The translations under genes and the position numbers were made by a program. The notes beneath the pieces are model-generated. The model saw nothing but the letters and a program-made list of their open reading frames with translations, searched no databases and was not told where the DNA came from. From Thiospirochaeta perfilievii (lineage in GTDB: Bacteria > Spirochaetota > Spirochaetia > DSM-2461), in NCBI RefSeq assembly GCF_008329945.1, contig NZ_CP035807.1, positions 2,480,001-2,544,000 on the forward strand: 64,000 nucleotides of DNA, written 5' to 3'. Positions 33,495-40,542 of this stretch are shown here, piece after piece; the stretch's first letter is position 1; every line of letters starts with the position of its first letter.

Positions 33495-34157
33495 TTAGTA
33501 GTCTACAATGTTGTTTCTAATTGCGAACTTTACAAGGTCAACGGATGTTTTCATATTTAGTTTTTGCATTATATGATTTTTATGGGATTCAACTGTTCTT
33601 ACACTAATAAAAAGCTCCTCGGAGATTTCACTATTGGTATAACTATTTCCCCATAGTTTTAGGACTTCAAGCTCCCTTGAGCTAAGACACTTTATTCCTT
33701 GGTTTTCTGTACAACTCTCATCACTTTTTATATTTGTAATATATTTATTAAGTAGAAGTTGAGTTATGGACTTACTGTAGTAGTCATGCCCACTTCTTAG
33801 GGTATAGATAGCTTCTAAAAGATCTTTTCTCTTACTATCTTTAGCTAAAAAGCCTTTAGCTCCAGCTTTTATTGTATTTAGAATATTTCCTTCATCTTTT
33901 TCTGCAGAGAGAATAAGAAGTTGTAACTTAGGATATTTATTACTTAGCCGGCTAATAACATTCATAACCGTCTTATCTAATACCTGCAGGTGTAGTAGAA
34001 GAATGTGTATCTGTTTTAGATCTGTGTCCTCGATTAACTTATCCATATTGTTATATTTTATTAAAACATGAAAGTCTTGAATTGATTCAAGTAGGGTAGA
34101 AATACCCTCTTGTATCAGATTGTGTTCACTATAAAATCCTATTTTTATACAATCCAT
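33495..34157 (-). CDS. Atypical response regulator: REC without phospho-acceptor plus LuxR HTH
   Basis: The 220 residues have a NarL/FixJ layout: receiver (about 4-120) and LuxR HTH (about 150-215; LSSRELEVLKLWGNSYTNSEISEELFIS split by the turn). The receiver lacks the phosphorylation apparatus. The acidic pair is replaced (FYSEHNL), and the acceptor Asp position reads ILLLHLQ, with His or Leu. The Lys in LAKDS remains. It should act without classical phosphorylation. It starts two bases after the giant sensor protein's stop and is surely co-expressed with it, so its activity may be set by that protein. Confidence 0.87.
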   Translation of the reverse strand: MDCIKIGFYSEHNLIQEGISTLLESIQDFHVLIKYNNMDKLIEDTDLKQIHILLLHLQVLDKTVMNVISRLSNKYPKLQLLILSAEKDEGNILNTIKAGAKGFLAKDSKRKDLLEAIYTLRSGHDYYSKSITQLLLNKYITNIKSDESCTENQGIKCLSSRELEVLKLWGNSYTNSEISEELFISVRTVESHKNHIMQKLNMKTSVDLVKFAIRNNIVDY

Positions 34158-34159
34158 AT

Positions 34160-37100
34160 CTATACATCCTCAATAATTATGGATTTTTTAGATCTACCAT
34201 CCATAATAACCTTAAGAGGTTTACTAAATCGGATGTGTCTAAAAAAGTTAGTTTTATGAATAACCTCTTCCTTGTAAAGTCTATCCCAATTAATAAACTC
34301 TGCATTTTTCTGATTATTTACAGAGAAGTAACCAATGTTCATTGAAGTAACATTATGAAAGAAGTGGGATCCTAGGGAGGAATCTAGAGGGAAGTTATCT
34401 AAACTTATCTCTACAATTATTTTGGCGTATGAAATTTGAGCCCAATTAACGGGAATTCCTAGGAACTGATCCCTTGTTCCCCATCTTCCTGGGCCAATTA
34501 GAATATAAGGTCTCTTTTCATTCATCATTACACGGTTTAAGTACTCTATCTCCTCAACCATCTCTAGGGTCTTCATCTTATCAAATAGATCTTTATCCAC
34601 ATATATTACATCACATATATTGTCTATTTCACCGTTACCTAGGCTTGTTTGGGTGTAGAGTAGGGATTCTGACTTTTTGAACTGGTCAATATCGAAGTGT
34701 ATAAAATTACTACTATCTACCATAGGTTTAGTTTGTAGTAGGTAAAAAGTAGGAACCCCATTTTCCGCTTTATTTAGATCCACAGCAAACTCAATCTCTA
34801 CTGGAGAACCTAGGGACTCTTTTAGGGTATTTAGTAGAATTTCCAGGGTTTTAGCTAGGGGTATATAGTTGTATTTAAGAATGTTTGCAAAATTAAGTAT
34901 TCGTGGCCCTGGGGTTGAGAGACCAGGAACAACTCTATCATTTTGTTGGTCATATACTGAGGCGCAGTGTTTAAGTGACCCATGTTTTTCAGCTTCACTA
35001 ATATTAAGTAGGGTAAGGGATGCAAGCTCTCCATCAACAGCATAATCCATATTTTCCCTTCGACAATCTAAGGCGTAAAACTTAACCTGGGAGCTATTTA
35101 TTAAGTCCTTATTGGAGTACATATCGACGTTAGGGTATTTAGGAGAAAATCTGTAGGAATTCATCCCCTCTACAACGTAACTACCAAGACCAAGGGCTGT
35201 CATTGCAAAACCTTCCTCCGGTTTCATGTGGGCTACAGGGTAGTAGTTATAGGAGCATGCTGTTCCACTAATATGGGGGTAGTAATAATCATCATATTTA
35301 TTTCCTACAAGCTCCTGAAGAATAACGGCCATCTTTTCATCCTCCATTCTATGATGAATAGCCTTATAGTATCCCTGGGCTTCATCGGAGAATACCGAGG
35401 CAAAAACAAGCTTTATACTCTCTTTTAACTTCTCTAGGGTAAGTGTTTTATTTTCCCTGTTATTAGGTAGTATATAGGTATGATAAACACCGGCAAAGGG
35501 CTGGGTAAAGGAGTCCTCTGATAGACTTGAGGATCTTACGGCTATTGGATTTTTTATCTGACCAATAAATTTAAATAGTTTATGTTCTAGGCCAGAGGAT
35601 AGTTTCCCAGCTAGGAATGCTAATTTTATATCATGAAAACTACGTCCCTTACTTATTACCTTATCGTAGAGCTTATTTCTGCTAATAAAAGTATCAAACT
35701 CCTTGGTTCCTATAATAGCTGTCTTTGGAGTTCTAATATTTATCTCACTGGATATAGTTGAGAAATCTGAGTTATATATTAGGGTATTTATAAATGCTAA
35801 TCCTCTACCTTTTCCACCAAGGGAACCACCAGCAATTGTTACAATATTTTTTTCAGTAAATTTTGTATCCTCTTCAAATCTAAAAACCTTACCCTTTTTT
35901 TTCTCTGCCTGATAATCTCCAATAATATTTAATAGGTACTCCCTAGTTAAGGATATATTATCTAATGACTCTATTCGCATAGGATTAATTGTTTTCGCAA
36001 GGGTAATCTCCCCCCTGGCCATTAGCCAAATAGAGTATTGGTTCTGGGTAGCATGTAGGTAGAAAGTTTCATCAGGAACAACTCTAAGTTGCTTTTCAAA
36101 CTCCTTAAGGGTTCGAGCTTCTGCTATTTTTTTACCATTTAGATCCTGGAAAATAAAATTCCCAAAGCCAAGGTATGCATTGAGATATTTTTTTAGATCA
36201 TTTAAAAGTGTATCCGAGTTTTTGTTAATAAAAAAAACATCTAGATCATCAGCTTGTTGTTTGTTTTTACCATTAGAAGATTGTAAAATTATTGGTAGTT
36301 TCATTTTGTGGGATTTAACATGTTTTATAAAATCTATACCAGCGTTCTTGTCAAGCTGTCCCCCATGGTCAAACTCTATATCCGATATAACACATAGAAG
36401 GTAGTCCCTATACTTGTTAAAAAGTTGCATAGCATCTTCATAGTTTTTAGCGAGTAGGATTTTAGGGCGGGATCTCATTTTACAAATTTTATCCAGCTCC
36501 TTCTTTTCAACCTCAGGTAGAAGTCTTTGTACCTGTCCAAAAACTATACCGTATAACATTGGTAGATATTTTGAGTAGTATAGGCACGAATCCTCAACCA
36601 TTAATATTACCCGAACAAGACCAACCTTTGTATCATTTTCAACATTTGTCATATCTTCCTTAGATTTTACAATTGAAAAAAGAATCTCAGAGTCTCCATT
36701 CCAGAAAAAGAGATTATCCAAGGAGTTTGTTGAGGCTACCTTATCCTCAAAGTGTTTAATATTACTCTTTTGGTTTATTAGTAGATAAATTGGTAGGGAG
36801 GGTCTTTTATTCTTTATCTTTTCACTTAATAAAACCGGAGCTTCCCTATCTAATCCTGCCATTAAAATAACAAGGTCGAAGGACTTTGAGTCTAACATCT
36901 CAAGGGCTTCTTCCGATGTGGTTACTCCTGTTATTCTTGGTAGGGAGAAAAGACTATACTGATAGATCTCCCCCATAAAACGTTCAAAAAAACCATCTTC
37001 ATTCTCTAGAATAAAAGCGTCGTAGAAAGTGGATACAAATAGTATCTCCTTAACTTTATACTTCATCATATCCAGGTATATATACTTATCAATAACTTGC

Positions 37101-38725
37101 TGGTTAAAGTACTGTTGCAGAGGTTTTTTATTTGTTGTTAGTGTTTTTTTATACTCTTCAGGTTTTTCAACCTCTCTTTTTTCATGGATATTGCTTCTAA
37201 AGATATCCCTACCCTTATTGTCGTTAAAATAACTTGTTATTAGCTTTCCTATATTAACTAAAAGATCCCTCTCTTCTTTAAGAAAAGGGCCTTCATATGC
37301 TTGGGGGAACTCTTTTAAATAAACAACCCTAATATAACCTTTATTATTATCTATTGTAATAAAGTTCTCATCCTGGCTCCAGGTTGTCTCTTTGTAGCCT
37401 GGGGTTATATAATCTCTACCCTCGTAATGGATCTTAACAGCGGTATACTCTGGGTACTGCCAGGAGACCTGTAGAATAGAGATAATTTTTGACATAGTTT
37501 CATCAACTGGTTTACATTCAGAAATAATCTTAGATGTTCTATTTATGGCTCTAAGTTCCTTAAGACGCTCATTGTTTTCTGATATTAGCTTTTTTAAAAT
37601 ATTACTACCGGCTGTTCCAGATATTAAGTGACTAAGGTTAATTAGTAGGTCCCGTTCTTCTTTTAAAAAAGGTCCTTCATCCTCTGTAGGGTACTCTTTT
37701 AGTAGAAAGACTTCTATCTCTCCCTTCTGGCTTCCTGGGCTTTCAAAACTTTGACGTTGAACCCAGATACTCTCTCTAAAGTTTACACTTGTAAAAATCA
37801 TTTTATTAAAATTTATTCTTACAACTGTATCTTCAGGGTGTTTCCATGCCTCGGGGAGGATGTTACAAATCTCCTGTAAAGACTCCTCTATAGAGGCACT
37901 ATTTTTAAGTATTTCGGATGTTTTATTAAGTCCCCTTAACTCTTTTAGTCGTTCAGTATTTACTTCTAAAAGAGTTTGAAGGGAGTTATTTGTATATGCC
38001 CCGGATATAATTGAAGCTAAAACATCTAAAAGGGATTTTTCTTCTTTTAAAAATGGTCCAAAATCTGAAATAGGGAAATCTTTTAAGTAGAATATTTCAA
38101 GAGTACCCTTCTTTTTATCTGGGGTTTCAAAGCTCTTTTTAAGTGACCAAGAAGTCTCTTTAAATTTTCGACTTGTAAATATCTTATTATCAAAATAAAT
38201 TCTAGCTACTGTAAATTTGGGGTATTGCCACGCTTCGGGAAGAAGATCACATATCTCCTGGAGGGAGTCTGTAAGCGTTGGGTTTTTCTTTAGTATCATA
38301 TTGGTTAGATGGATGCTGTTAAGCTCTTTTACTCTCTCATTATGATCATAGTATAGGTTGTTAAGCTCCATCTTAGAGATATAACCTGTTATTATTGTGG
38401 TTAAAATTGTTAGTAGTTTTTTATACTCTTTTGCTTCCTTACTTAATTCCTCTTTGTAATAGAGTTTAAGGGAGCCTTTTTTACCTTGGGATAGGTTTAG
38501 TATTAATTTGTCAGAGTATTGGGTTTTAATAAAACCTATGCTTTTATACTTTGAGGAGGGGGTTGTTAGAATACTGGATACAATATCGACTCTACTTAAC
38601 AGTTTTGGCAGTTGGTCTACAATTTCCTGGAGAACTATCTCCATTTGTCGCTCAGTTGTTGTAAGTGCAACCACAGTGTTTAGACAGTTAAGAGACTCTT
38701 TTTTAGTAAAAATATCAGTAAGCAT
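34160..38725 (-). CDS. Giant signalling protein: GAF-like repeats, two receiver-like domains, PPDK-type ATP-grasp
   Basis: The 1521 residues begin with four related GAF-like repeats of about 125 residues each (to about 520). The first is divergent; the other three share LQEIC..LPEAW.YP and EGPFLKEERDLL-type blocks. Two receiver-like regions follow (about 545-650 and 675-830); the second has VEDS and ISDIEF. The last 650 residues are a pyruvate-phosphate-dikinase/PEP-synthase ATP-binding domain with AGGSLGGKGRGLAFIN, AVRSSSLSEDS and a late EIEFAVDL..VPTFYLLQTKP. The swivelling His domain and PEP/pyruvate barrel of true PPDK are absent, so it is not a metabolic enzyme. It is probably an ATP-using phosphotransfer sensor. 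GGAG precedes the ATG. Confidence 0.82.
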   Translation of the reverse strand: MLTDIFTKKESLNCLNTVVALTTTERQMEIVLQEIVDQLPKLLSRVDIVSSILTTPSSKYKSIGFIKTQYSDKLILNLSQGKKGSLKLYYKEELSKEAKEYKKLLTILTTIITGYISKMELNNLYYDHNERVKELNSIHLTNMILKKNPTLTDSLQEICDLLPEAWQYPKFTVARIYFDNKIFTSRKFKETSWSLKKSFETPDKKKGTLEIFYLKDFPISDFGPFLKEEKSLLDVLASIISGAYTNNSLQTLLEVNTERLKELRGLNKTSEILKNSASIEESLQEICNILPEAWKHPEDTVVRINFNKMIFTSVNFRESIWVQRQSFESPGSQKGEIEVFLLKEYPTEDEGPFLKEERDLLINLSHLISGTAGSNILKKLISENNERLKELRAINRTSKIISECKPVDETMSKIISILQVSWQYPEYTAVKIHYEGRDYITPGYKETTWSQDENFITIDNNKGYIRVVYLKEFPQAYEGPFLKEERDLLVNIGKLITSYFNDNKGRDIFRSNIHEKREVEKPEEYKKTLTTNKKPLQQYFNQQVIDKYIYLDMMKYKVKEILFVSTFYDAFILENEDGFFERFMGEIYQYSLFSLPRITGVTTSEEALEMLDSKSFDLVILMAGLDREAPVLLSEKIKNKRPSLPIYLLINQKSNIKHFEDKVASTNSLDNLFFWNGDSEILFSIVKSKEDMTNVENDTKVGLVRVILMVEDSCLYYSKYLPMLYGIVFGQVQRLLPEVEKKELDKICKMRSRPKILLAKNYEDAMQLFNKYRDYLLCVISDIEFDHGGQLDKNAGIDFIKHVKSHKMKLPIILQSSNGKNKQQADDLDVFFINKNSDTLLNDLKKYLNAYLGFGNFIFQDLNGKKIAEARTLKEFEKQLRVVPDETFYLHATQNQYSIWLMARGEITLAKTINPMRIESLDNISLTREYLLNIIGDYQAEKKKGKVFRFEEDTKFTEKNIVTIAGGSLGGKGRGLAFINTLIYNSDFSTISSEINIRTPKTAIIGTKEFDTFISRNKLYDKVISKGRSFHDIKLAFLAGKLSSGLEHKLFKFIGQIKNPIAVRSSSLSEDSFTQPFAGVYHTYILPNNRENKTLTLEKLKESIKLVFASVFSDEAQGYYKAIHHRMEDEKMAVILQELVGNKYDDYYYPHISGTACSYNYYPVAHMKPEEGFAMTALGLGSYVVEGMNSYRFSPKYPNVDMYSNKDLINSSQVKFYALDCRRENMDYAVDGELASLTLLNISEAEKHGSLKHCASVYDQQNDRVVPGLSTPGPRILNFANILKYNYIPLAKTLEILLNTLKESLGSPVEIEFAVDLNKAENGVPTFYLLQTKPMVDSSNFIHFDIDQFKKSESLLYTQTSLGNGEIDNICDVIYVDKDLFDKMKTLEMVEEIEYLNRVMMNEKRPYILIGPGRWGTRDQFLGIPVNWAQISYAKIIVEISLDNFPLDSSLGSHFFHNVTSMNIGYFSVNNQKNAEFINWDRLYKEEVIHKTNFFRHIRFSKPLKVIMDGRSKKSIIIEDV

Positions 38726-38776: not shown

Positions 38777-40132
38777 CTATATCCCAAAAACCTTATTAAG
38801 AAAAACTATAGCAATTAAAATAGGGGATATAAATTTAATCATAATCATAAATACTTTACTATATTTACTAGCATAAACCCCCGAGCTTGAGATTTCATCC
38901 TTAACATCTGACTTTTTCATTACCCAACCAACAAATATAGATACGGATAGGGCAACAATTGGAAGCATCCAGTTTGCTGTAAAATAATCTACAAAGTCAA
39001 ATAAGTTCATATTTTTTATAGATATTGAACTAAATATAGAGTTTGGACTCATAGATAGAGAGAATACTGTACCTATTATTATTAATGCCAAAACAACAAT
39101 AATTGTTGATTTTTTTCTGTCTAACTTACTATCCTCTGAAACATAGGCAACAGTTACTTCTAGTAGAGATACTGTGGAAGTTAGGGCTGCAATTGCTAAT
39201 AAAATAAAGAATAGTAGCTGGAAGAAAAAGCCTCCAGCCATCTGATTAAAAATATTAGGTAGTGTAATAAAAACTAAACCAGGACCTGATGCGGGTTCAA
39301 TATTAAATGCAAATACAGCTGGGAATATTGCTACTCCTGCTAATAGAGCAATAACTGTATCAGCAATAGCAACTTGAACAGCAGTAGTTCCAAGGTTTAC
39401 ATCCTTTTTTATATATGAACCATAGGTAAGCATAATACCCATACCTAGACTTAAGGTAAAAAATGCGTGACCTAGTGCTTCAAGAACCCCATCCCTGGTT
39501 AATCTTGAGAAATCTGGTTTAAAGAGAAACTTAAGTCCCTCTGATGCCCCATCTAAAGTAACGGCTCTAACATTTAAAATTAATATAATTATTAATAAAA
39601 AGGGCATTAGTATTTTAGATGCCTTCTCAATACCGTTATGTACTCCTAAAAGAACTACTGCTCCTGTAATAACCATAAATATTGATTGAAAAATAATTGG
39701 CTCTACTGGATTAGTTATAAAACTGTTAAAAAGAGAATCTATGGTTTCAACACTTTTACCAGAAAAACTATTTGTTAGGGAAAGTTTTACATAGTTTAAT
39801 GTCCAACCAGCAACAACTCCATAAAAAGCTAATATAAAAAAAGATGTTCCCATAGCTAGAGCTCCTGGTATCTTCCATCCCTTTAATCCTGATATTTGGG
39901 AAAAACTATCTACAGCATTTTTATTACTTCTTCTACCTATCAACATCTCTGAAATTAAAATTGGTAGACCTATTAAAACAATACATATTAGATATACAAG
40001 TAAAAATGCACCACCACCATTTTCTCCGGTTATATATGGGAACTTCCATATGTTCCCTAGACCAATTGCAGAACCAGCAGCAGCTGCTATAATACCAAAC
40101 TTGGATGAAAAACCATCCCTCTCTTTTATCAT
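38777..40132 (-). CDS. Neurotransmitter:sodium symporter (NSS/SNF) family transporter
   Basis: Counting from the ATG at 40132 gives 451 residues with about eleven to twelve helices and the LeuT-fold opening AAAAGSAIGLGNIWKFPY followed by NGGGAFLLVY. These inner-membrane symporters import amino acids such as Leu, Trp or Tyr with Na+. A longer frame starts at 40198 but adds an unlikely 22 residues; TTGAGG upstream of 40132 supports the shorter start. A large intergenic region separates it from the divergent APC gene. Confidence 0.91.
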   Translation of the reverse strand: MIKERDGFSSKFGIIAAAAGSAIGLGNIWKFPYITGENGGGAFLLVYLICIVLIGLPILISEMLIGRRSNKNAVDSFSQISGLKGWKIPGALAMGTSFFILAFYGVVAGWTLNYVKLSLTNSFSGKSVETIDSLFNSFITNPVEPIIFQSIFMVITGAVVLLGVHNGIEKASKILMPFLLIIILILNVRAVTLDGASEGLKFLFKPDFSRLTRDGVLEALGHAFFTLSLGMGIMLTYGSYIKKDVNLGTTAVQVAIADTVIALLAGVAIFPAVFAFNIEPASGPGLVFITLPNIFNQMAGGFFFQLLFFILLAIAALTSTVSLLEVTVAYVSEDSKLDRKKSTIIVVLALIIIGTVFSLSMSPNSIFSSISIKNMNLFDFVDYFTANWMLPIVALSVSIFVGWVMKKSDVKDEISSSGVYASKYSKVFMIMIKFISPILIAIVFLNKVFGI

Positions 40133-40542
40133 AATAATATAAACCTCAAAAAACAATGTCTGAATATTATATCGGTAAAAACTATATAATGCAAACATAT
40201 CTAAATGTTTAAAAGCGATATACTTATTTAATTTGGCTATATTCTTTTATTTAGAATTTTATGCATATGGTTAAATGATTATTTATTTGCAGTTTAGTTG
40301 TTATATTGACGTTTATCGTATTATGTCTTTGATATTGTACGAATATATTATGTGTAATATGTGAAGTCTAGGTTATTAGTATAATAAGAGAGGTTGCTAC
40401 TTAACAGATGATCTTTAGTTTTTACGATAATAACAAAATTAAATTTCTCGAATATTTTGTGTAATCCATCTCTAATATACGTACATTTATTATATTAAAA
40501 TACATATTGCGCAAAAACATAGATAGCATATAGTATACATGT
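40133..40542. other. Divergent intergenic region, very AT-rich
   Basis: About 410 bases between the NSS and APC transporter genes. Apart from the promoter at 40507-40534 I see no gene, tRNA or recognisable riboswitch. Short reading frames here have no coding character. Confidence 0.6.
40507..40534 (+). promoter_or_regulatory. Promoter giving a near-leaderless transcript of the APC gene
   Basis: TTGCGC at 40507 and TATAGT at 40529 are spaced 16 bases. The ATG follows the -10 box by eight bases and there is no Shine-Dalgarno, so transcription should begin at or beside the start codon. Confidence 0.5.

Follow-up and report, generated by a model that had tools for sequence, protein, structure and literature searches.

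Proteins in which a receiver (REC) domain is fused to a domain of the pyruvate phosphate dikinase (PPDK) type have been recorded in censuses, the relevant parts of which give no function for them and mention neither a linkage to glutamate dehydrogenase (GDH) nor a swivel-fold domain (PMC5847659; PMC4395418). The sensor protein described here joins REC to a PPDK-type domain in the same way, and its core family has many members in Bacteroidota and extends to archaea. It differs from the census proteins in that its second receiver (REC2) is canonical and only the first (REC1) is Asp-less, and in the addition of four GAF-like repeats and an Asp-less LuxR partner. VadK (Rv1127c) of mycobacteria is a PPDK derivative without a PEP/pyruvate barrel; it autophosphorylates on His and controls metabolic enzymes by interacting with them (PMC13400623). 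It shares with the present sensor the ATP-grasp domain, the lack of a barrel and a tie to the regulation of metabolic enzymes, and its His carrier has a putative counterpart here, predicted by fold; however, VadK as described has only two domains, one of them a recognisable PPDK-type His domain, whereas the present protein carries sensors, receivers and a C-terminal domain that is invisible to sequence profiles.

PPDK and PEP synthase resemble the sensor in the fold and residues of the ATP-grasp domain and in a collinear, predicted swivel-fold domain, but the PEP/pyruvate barrel is absent here and the carrier motif is changed to G[ST]HFF. RPH, phenylphosphate synthase PpsAB and HpeHI likewise combine an ATP-grasp domain with a swivel in the absence of a PEP barrel; unlike the sensor, they possess a substrate-binding domain, phosphorylate small molecules and have no receivers (PMC4844700, PMC12167813). 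The regulator encoded beside the sensor is a REC-LuxR protein of the aspartate-less receiver (ALR) kind, lacking the acceptor Asp as 18 of its 19 relatives do, and no essential difference from ALR regulators (PMC4395418) was seen, its partner here being a PPDK-type sensor and not a histidine kinase.

The preliminary description of this locus, made from the sequence alone, had proposed a different phosphotransfer logic. A sensor/DNA-binding pair that dispenses with a histidine kinase and uses a PPDK-type ATP-grasp domain survives from that proposal, but such a logic is not unprecedented, since REC-PPDK fusions, Asp-less receivers and the His-autophosphorylating VadK have already been published (PMC5847659, PMC4395418, PMC13400623). 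What is new here is the cross-phylum link to GDH, the hidden domain with a predicted carrier fold, the exchange of inputs among relatives, and the presence of an Asp-less LuxR partner in a cassette capable of transfer.

Cassette layout and sensor inputs

The window, that is, the whole analysed stretch of 64,000 nucleotides from Thiospirochaeta perfilievii, contains the following features (window positions; aa numbering of the sensor except for the last two lines):

34160-38725, minus strand: sensor gene, 1521 aa (four GAF-like repeats, REC1, REC2, helical linker, PPDK_N ATP-grasp, C-terminal domain of predicted swivel fold)
37211-38725, minus strand: four GAF-like repeats, aa 1-505; R2-R4 clear, R1 diverged
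36656-37051, minus strand: REC1 pseudo-receiver, aa 559-690; Met622 at the acceptor position
36152-36616, minus strand: REC2 canonical receiver, aa 704-858; E711, D712, acceptor D782 (36380-36382), S816, K835
35846-36109, minus strand: helical linker domain, aa 873-960; weak DUF5752-like match, conserved H..S.W..A
34712-35824, minus strand: PPDK_N ATP-grasp, aa 968-1338; K972, R1064, E1310, E1312 and Q1331 invariant
34163-34720, minus strand: C-terminal domain, aa 1336-1521, predicted swivelling beta/beta/alpha fold; H1454 (34364-34366), R1414, G1452, F1455
33495-34157, minus strand: regulator of 220 aa, Asp-less receiver (His56) plus LuxR/GerE helix-turn-helix
32027-33379, minus strand: gdhA, NADP-specific glutamate dehydrogenase (NCBIfam equivalog NF006929, 778.6 bits against a cut-off of 536)

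Both open reading frames of the pair noticed earlier were recovered with the gap of 2 bases between them. The third member of the cassette, gdhA, begins 115 bp beyond the LuxR gene; lying outside positions 33495-38725, it had been missed in the preliminary description, yet it is the key neighbour. It is the only close match to NADP-glutamate dehydrogenase in the genome. On the minus strand, the interval from the LuxR gene to gdhA showed no terminator-like site, and promoter and terminator scans of the cassette gave results that either did not exceed those of shuffled sequences or were uninformative. A gene for a sodium-dependent transporter (38777-40198, minus strand) precedes the sensor gene in the same orientation at a distance of 51 bp; in the loci of relatives, no such transporter was seen next to the sensor gene.

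The domain composition read from the letters was largely borne out. Four GAF-like repeats are present, R2-R4 being 36-49% identical to one another and R1, at merely 16-24%, weak; relatives of this module in related genomes belong to histidine kinases, an NtrC-type protein and a LuxR protein. Both receiver-like domains could be recognised, with a Pfam Response_reg score of 28.9 bits, just below the cut-off, and a fold match of REC2 at Z about 13-14. The PEP-synthase-like ATP-binding domain is a PPDK_N domain (aa 968-1338, Pfam E 8e-38, fold Z 18-26), and the five ATP-grasp residues listed above are invariant in 62/62 homologues. HisKA, HATPase_c, a PEP-utiliser domain and the PEP barrel were all missing from the sensor by Pfam, in agreement with the earlier reading of a protein that is neither a histidine kinase nor a barrel enzyme, and the chain stops after the C-terminal domain, leaving no room for a PEP/pyruvate barrel.

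The claim that the system lacks a classical acceptor does not hold once all of its receivers are considered. The acceptor position of REC1 is occupied by Met in 54 of the 62 homologues, while REC2 is canonical in 61/62 (the same count holds for D782), with E711, D712, S816 and K835 near-invariant, and the reading with no classical acceptor was rejected on these grounds. The sensor is a fusion of REC to a PPDK-type domain and, judged from the residues, has one canonical receiver of the phosphorylatable type (REC2) and a dead one (REC1).

In the LuxR protein (GerE match, E 1.8e-17), the acceptor position is taken by His56 and the acidic pair by Ser-Glu, so that the absence of both acceptor and pair noted earlier holds with one acidic residue kept. 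The pair formed by the sensor and the LuxR protein is conserved in spirochaetes and Bacteroidota, and the acceptor Asp is absent from 18/19 relatives of the regulator. The single relative with an acceptor Asp (L046:3986-4651, minus strand) has Ala for Ser/Thr and no Lys; a paired receiver with a normal Asp, which had been named as evidence against the earlier reading, thus exists as far as the Asp goes, but not with the usual Ser/Thr and Lys. Since the receiver is Asp-less in the manner described in PMC4395418, a switch of this regulator by Asp phosphorylation appears unlikely from its sequence.

The C-terminal domain and its predicted fold

When modelled alone, the C-terminal domain (186 residues) gave a predicted structure with pLDDT 92.6. 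The best VIA-align match of this model in the PDB was the phosphoryl-carrier domain of PPDK (2fm4; 3.6 A over 115 residues) with Z 5.9, a value in the range compatible with a mere common fold and not decisive by itself. Four more PPDKs, EIN-Ntr, EI and RPH stand in the same list, and apical domains of GroEL/TRiC, aconitase and RraA score close behind 2fm4. These last proteins share the swivelling beta/beta/alpha fold. The core model (992 residues) could be superimposed on PEP synthase 2ols with Z 26.0 over 362 residues (model 431-992 onto 9-467) and on PPDK 1dik (418-992 onto 6-511), so the C-terminal domain follows the ATP-grasp domain in the same order as the carrier of PPDK. In the predicted order of elements (beta-alpha-beta-alpha-beta-loop-His-alpha-beta...), H1454 opens the third helix, which we take, from what is known of PPDK and from this order, to be the site of the PPDK catalytic His. 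H1454, R1414, G1452 and F1455 are invariant in 70/70 sequences, the set for H1454 and R1414 including KaiC-type relatives, and the GGxTSHAA carrier motif of PPDK is replaced by [LQ]G[ST]HFF.

Sequence-based comparisons gave a different picture. For the C-terminal domain, hhalign in local and global mode returned swivel domains with a probability of 0.4% or less, under conditions in which the EI and PPDK swivels, used as a positive control, were joined at 99.4%. Pfam searches of 46 members matched this domain neither to PF00391 nor to another swivel, hmmsearch of PDB sequences found no swivel relation, and Foldseek alone returned nothing significant (best E 0.017, a chitinase). The swivel reading rests on VIA-align and collinearity, from which we consider it likely that the domain is a diverged phosphohistidine carrier. 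The earlier statement that there is no phosphohistidine swivel therefore stands by sequence but not by predicted fold, collinearity with PPDK and PEP synthase, and the invariant His. A His domain elsewhere in the protein, which had been named as an observation that would count against the original proposal, is probably present in the form of this predicted domain, on which sequence profiles are silent.

The same evidence bears on the idea of a non-catalytic nucleotide sensor, in which the ATP-grasp domain would merely bind ATP/ADP as a measure of energy charge and the C-terminal domain would be a structural fold binding GDH or LuxR. The C-terminal sequence resembles no phosphohistidine domain, and conservation of the nucleotide pocket can be explained by binding alone; however, every tested catalytic residue of the ATP-grasp domain is invariant, as is H1454 (70/70) at its predicted catalytic place, which makes this idea decidedly improbable. 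In the literature found, VadK is the sole studied PPDK-derived signalling kinase, and a phosphohistidine domain hidden from profiles would mean that such kinases have been under-counted.

Linkage to glutamate dehydrogenase and origin of the cassette

Among 30 PPDK_N-family loci from spirochaete relatives, 27 have a GDH gene within 1.5 kb, the match in L032 being weak, and the three GDH-less loci include contig ends. In the wider set of 80 named loci, GDH lies near the core gene in 33, in either orientation, and no GDH was found inside the fetched flanks of the other 47. The positive loci belong to Bacteroidota, Spirochaetota, Acidobacteriota, Gemmatimonadota, Cloacimonadota and the archaeal Thermoplasmatota and Hodarchaeota; as the locus sets are phylogenetically dependent and the named set is skewed to close relatives and Bacteroidota, these counts describe a recurrence and not a rate. 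At 41 control loci of PPDK, EI and PtsP, GDH was found in none, and a general linkage of PPDK with GDH was rejected on this basis. The family is large, a single scan having returned at least 584 related stretches.

Core and GDH distances are correlated (Mantel r 0.68, equalled in 0/1000 permutations), and in four Bacteroidota loci (L049, L050, L062, L063) there are two core paralogues, each adjoining its own type of GDH. Tandem duplicated core genes were seen in L048, L049, L050, L055, L056, L059, L062, L063 and L109 (Bacteroidota/Cloacimonadota). An accidental neighbourhood of sensor, REC-LuxR and gdhA, or one due to shared ancestry only, would agree with the 47 of 80 named loci that have no GDH nearby and with the skew of this set to Bacteroidota; but the adjacency recurs in different phyla, in both orientations and with separate paralogues, and none of the 41 control loci shows it, which leaves such an accident hardly credible. 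A functional link of the sensor family with GDH is, in our opinion, very likely, adjacency as such being no proof that GDH is the target. Literature searches for the sensor family together with GDH returned nothing relevant.

A sister type was represented by a further 19 loci, and GDH was located in 13 of them, three of these matches being weak and cut by the locus edge; most of the 19 proteins have a degenerate KaiC-like N-terminus and no receivers. So, the output module, and not the receiver, tracks GDH. The sister family (L031, L033, L034, L166-L182) combines the degenerate KaiC-like N-terminus with PPDK_N and the same C-terminal domain (GPGRWG...GTHFF) and is mostly located beside GDH. Two other relatives of ~1060 aa (L183, L184) have an ERAKELNCLYQVEE sensor start and the GTHFF domain and are apparently beside GDH as well.

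These relatives are pertinent to an analogue of hybrid kinases, in which the phosphoryl group of H1454 would be relayed to D782, in the same chain or in trans, with REC2 as the output and the PPDK parts replacing HisKA/HATPase. Such an arrangement would suit the REC2 domain that is canonical in 61/62 homologues, the N-terminal sensor repeats of histidine-kinase type, the lack of HisKA/HATPase and the predicted His carrier within the same chain. However, a receiver in the same chain is not required, since the KaiC-like relatives, which have none, retain both the ATP-grasp/C-terminal module and the association with GDH. In addition, REC precedes the enzymatic module, the arrangement of response regulators whose output is an enzyme. 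A relay of this kind is therefore unlikely, and REC2 is somewhat better understood as an input than as the final acceptor.

In Bacteroidota, genes for the alpha and beta subunits of a KorAB-type 2-oxoacid:acceptor oxidoreductase often lie directly upstream of the core gene (L048, L057, L073, L074, L075, L078, L082, L083 and others). Metabolic neighbours such as GDH and KorAB, and the existence of two-domain small-molecule dikinases (PMC12167813; PMC4844700), would be in keeping with a metabolic dikinase comparable to RPH, phenylphosphate synthase and HpeHI, in which the ATP-grasp/swivel module would transfer a phosphoryl group to a small molecule connected with the metabolism of glutamate or 2-oxoglutarate, under the regulation of receivers or KaiC-like domains. 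But there is no extra substrate-binding domain before or after the swivel, unlike in RPH and HpeH, and the sensory architecture and the paired transcription factor indicate signalling, which renders this function quite unlikely; a regulatory rather than metabolic role of the sensor is held with good confidence.

In the core tree, the cassette of the window and six relatives of full architecture nest inside Bacteroidota. The GDH of the cassette is 80% identical to that of Bacteroidales, whereas its identity to the other spirochaete types does not exceed about 74%, and the order sensor - LuxR - gdhA is also present in five Bacteroidota loci (L035, L036, L039-L041). Because of this nesting, the Bacteroidales-like GDH and the same gene order there, a joint transfer of the whole cassette is probable, as far as can be judged from sequence comparison.

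Proposed mode of action

GDH is one of the main routes by which ammonium enters metabolism, and to our knowledge it has few dedicated regulators. The sensor is probably a member of a so far uncharacterised family of GDH regulators. In the scheme suggested here, the GAF-like repeats and the phosphorylatable-type REC2 (D782) would serve as sensor inputs, and the ATP-grasp domain with the C-terminal swivel-fold domain would form the output, like the first half of PPDK or PEP synthase. ATP would phosphorylate H1454 of the swivel-fold domain. As a PEP/pyruvate barrel is lacking, the phosphoryl group, or the conformational state set by phosphorylation, might act on a protein, the likeliest targets being GDH and a complex controlling its synthesis. 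As the ATP-grasp domain, the C-terminal domain and GDH are constant while the inputs vary, the ATP-grasp/C-terminal pair is taken as the output on GDH or on GDH expression. The signal would likely be carbon/nitrogen or 2-oxoglutarate status because of the GDH and KorAB neighbours, the direction of GDH control belonging to the inferred part of the scheme. The Asp-less LuxR regulator is probably controlled through contact with the sensor and may adjust transcription of its own operon or of gdhA. Whether the cassette is in fact a GDH-dedicated unit whose sensor is a regulatory ATP:histidine phosphotransferase with interchangeable inputs appears to us evenly balanced.

A broader proposal can be put forward only tentatively, our doubts somewhat outweighing our confidence, namely that a widespread superfamily of bacterial and archaeal signalling kinases exists in which ATP-grasp and a hidden, strongly diverged phosphohistidine swivel replace HisKA/HATPase, with swappable inputs of GAF-like, receiver or KaiC-like type, dedicated to GDH as a control of carbon and nitrogen apart from P-II/NtrBC, a route from ATP over H1454 to D782 being possible in the present protein. 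Hundreds of unannotated proteins, encoded next to gdhA in a number of bacterial phyla as well as in archaea, would then constitute a new class of nitrogen-control kinases. A missing P-II protein as the motive for an alternative nitrogen sensor was considered and rejected, as four ordinary P-II genes are present in the genome. A separate 965-aa frame of this genome (G000:C1:2681813-2683081; L186, L187) contains weak GDH-like stretches (38% and 29%) and possibly encodes a GDH of the large type.
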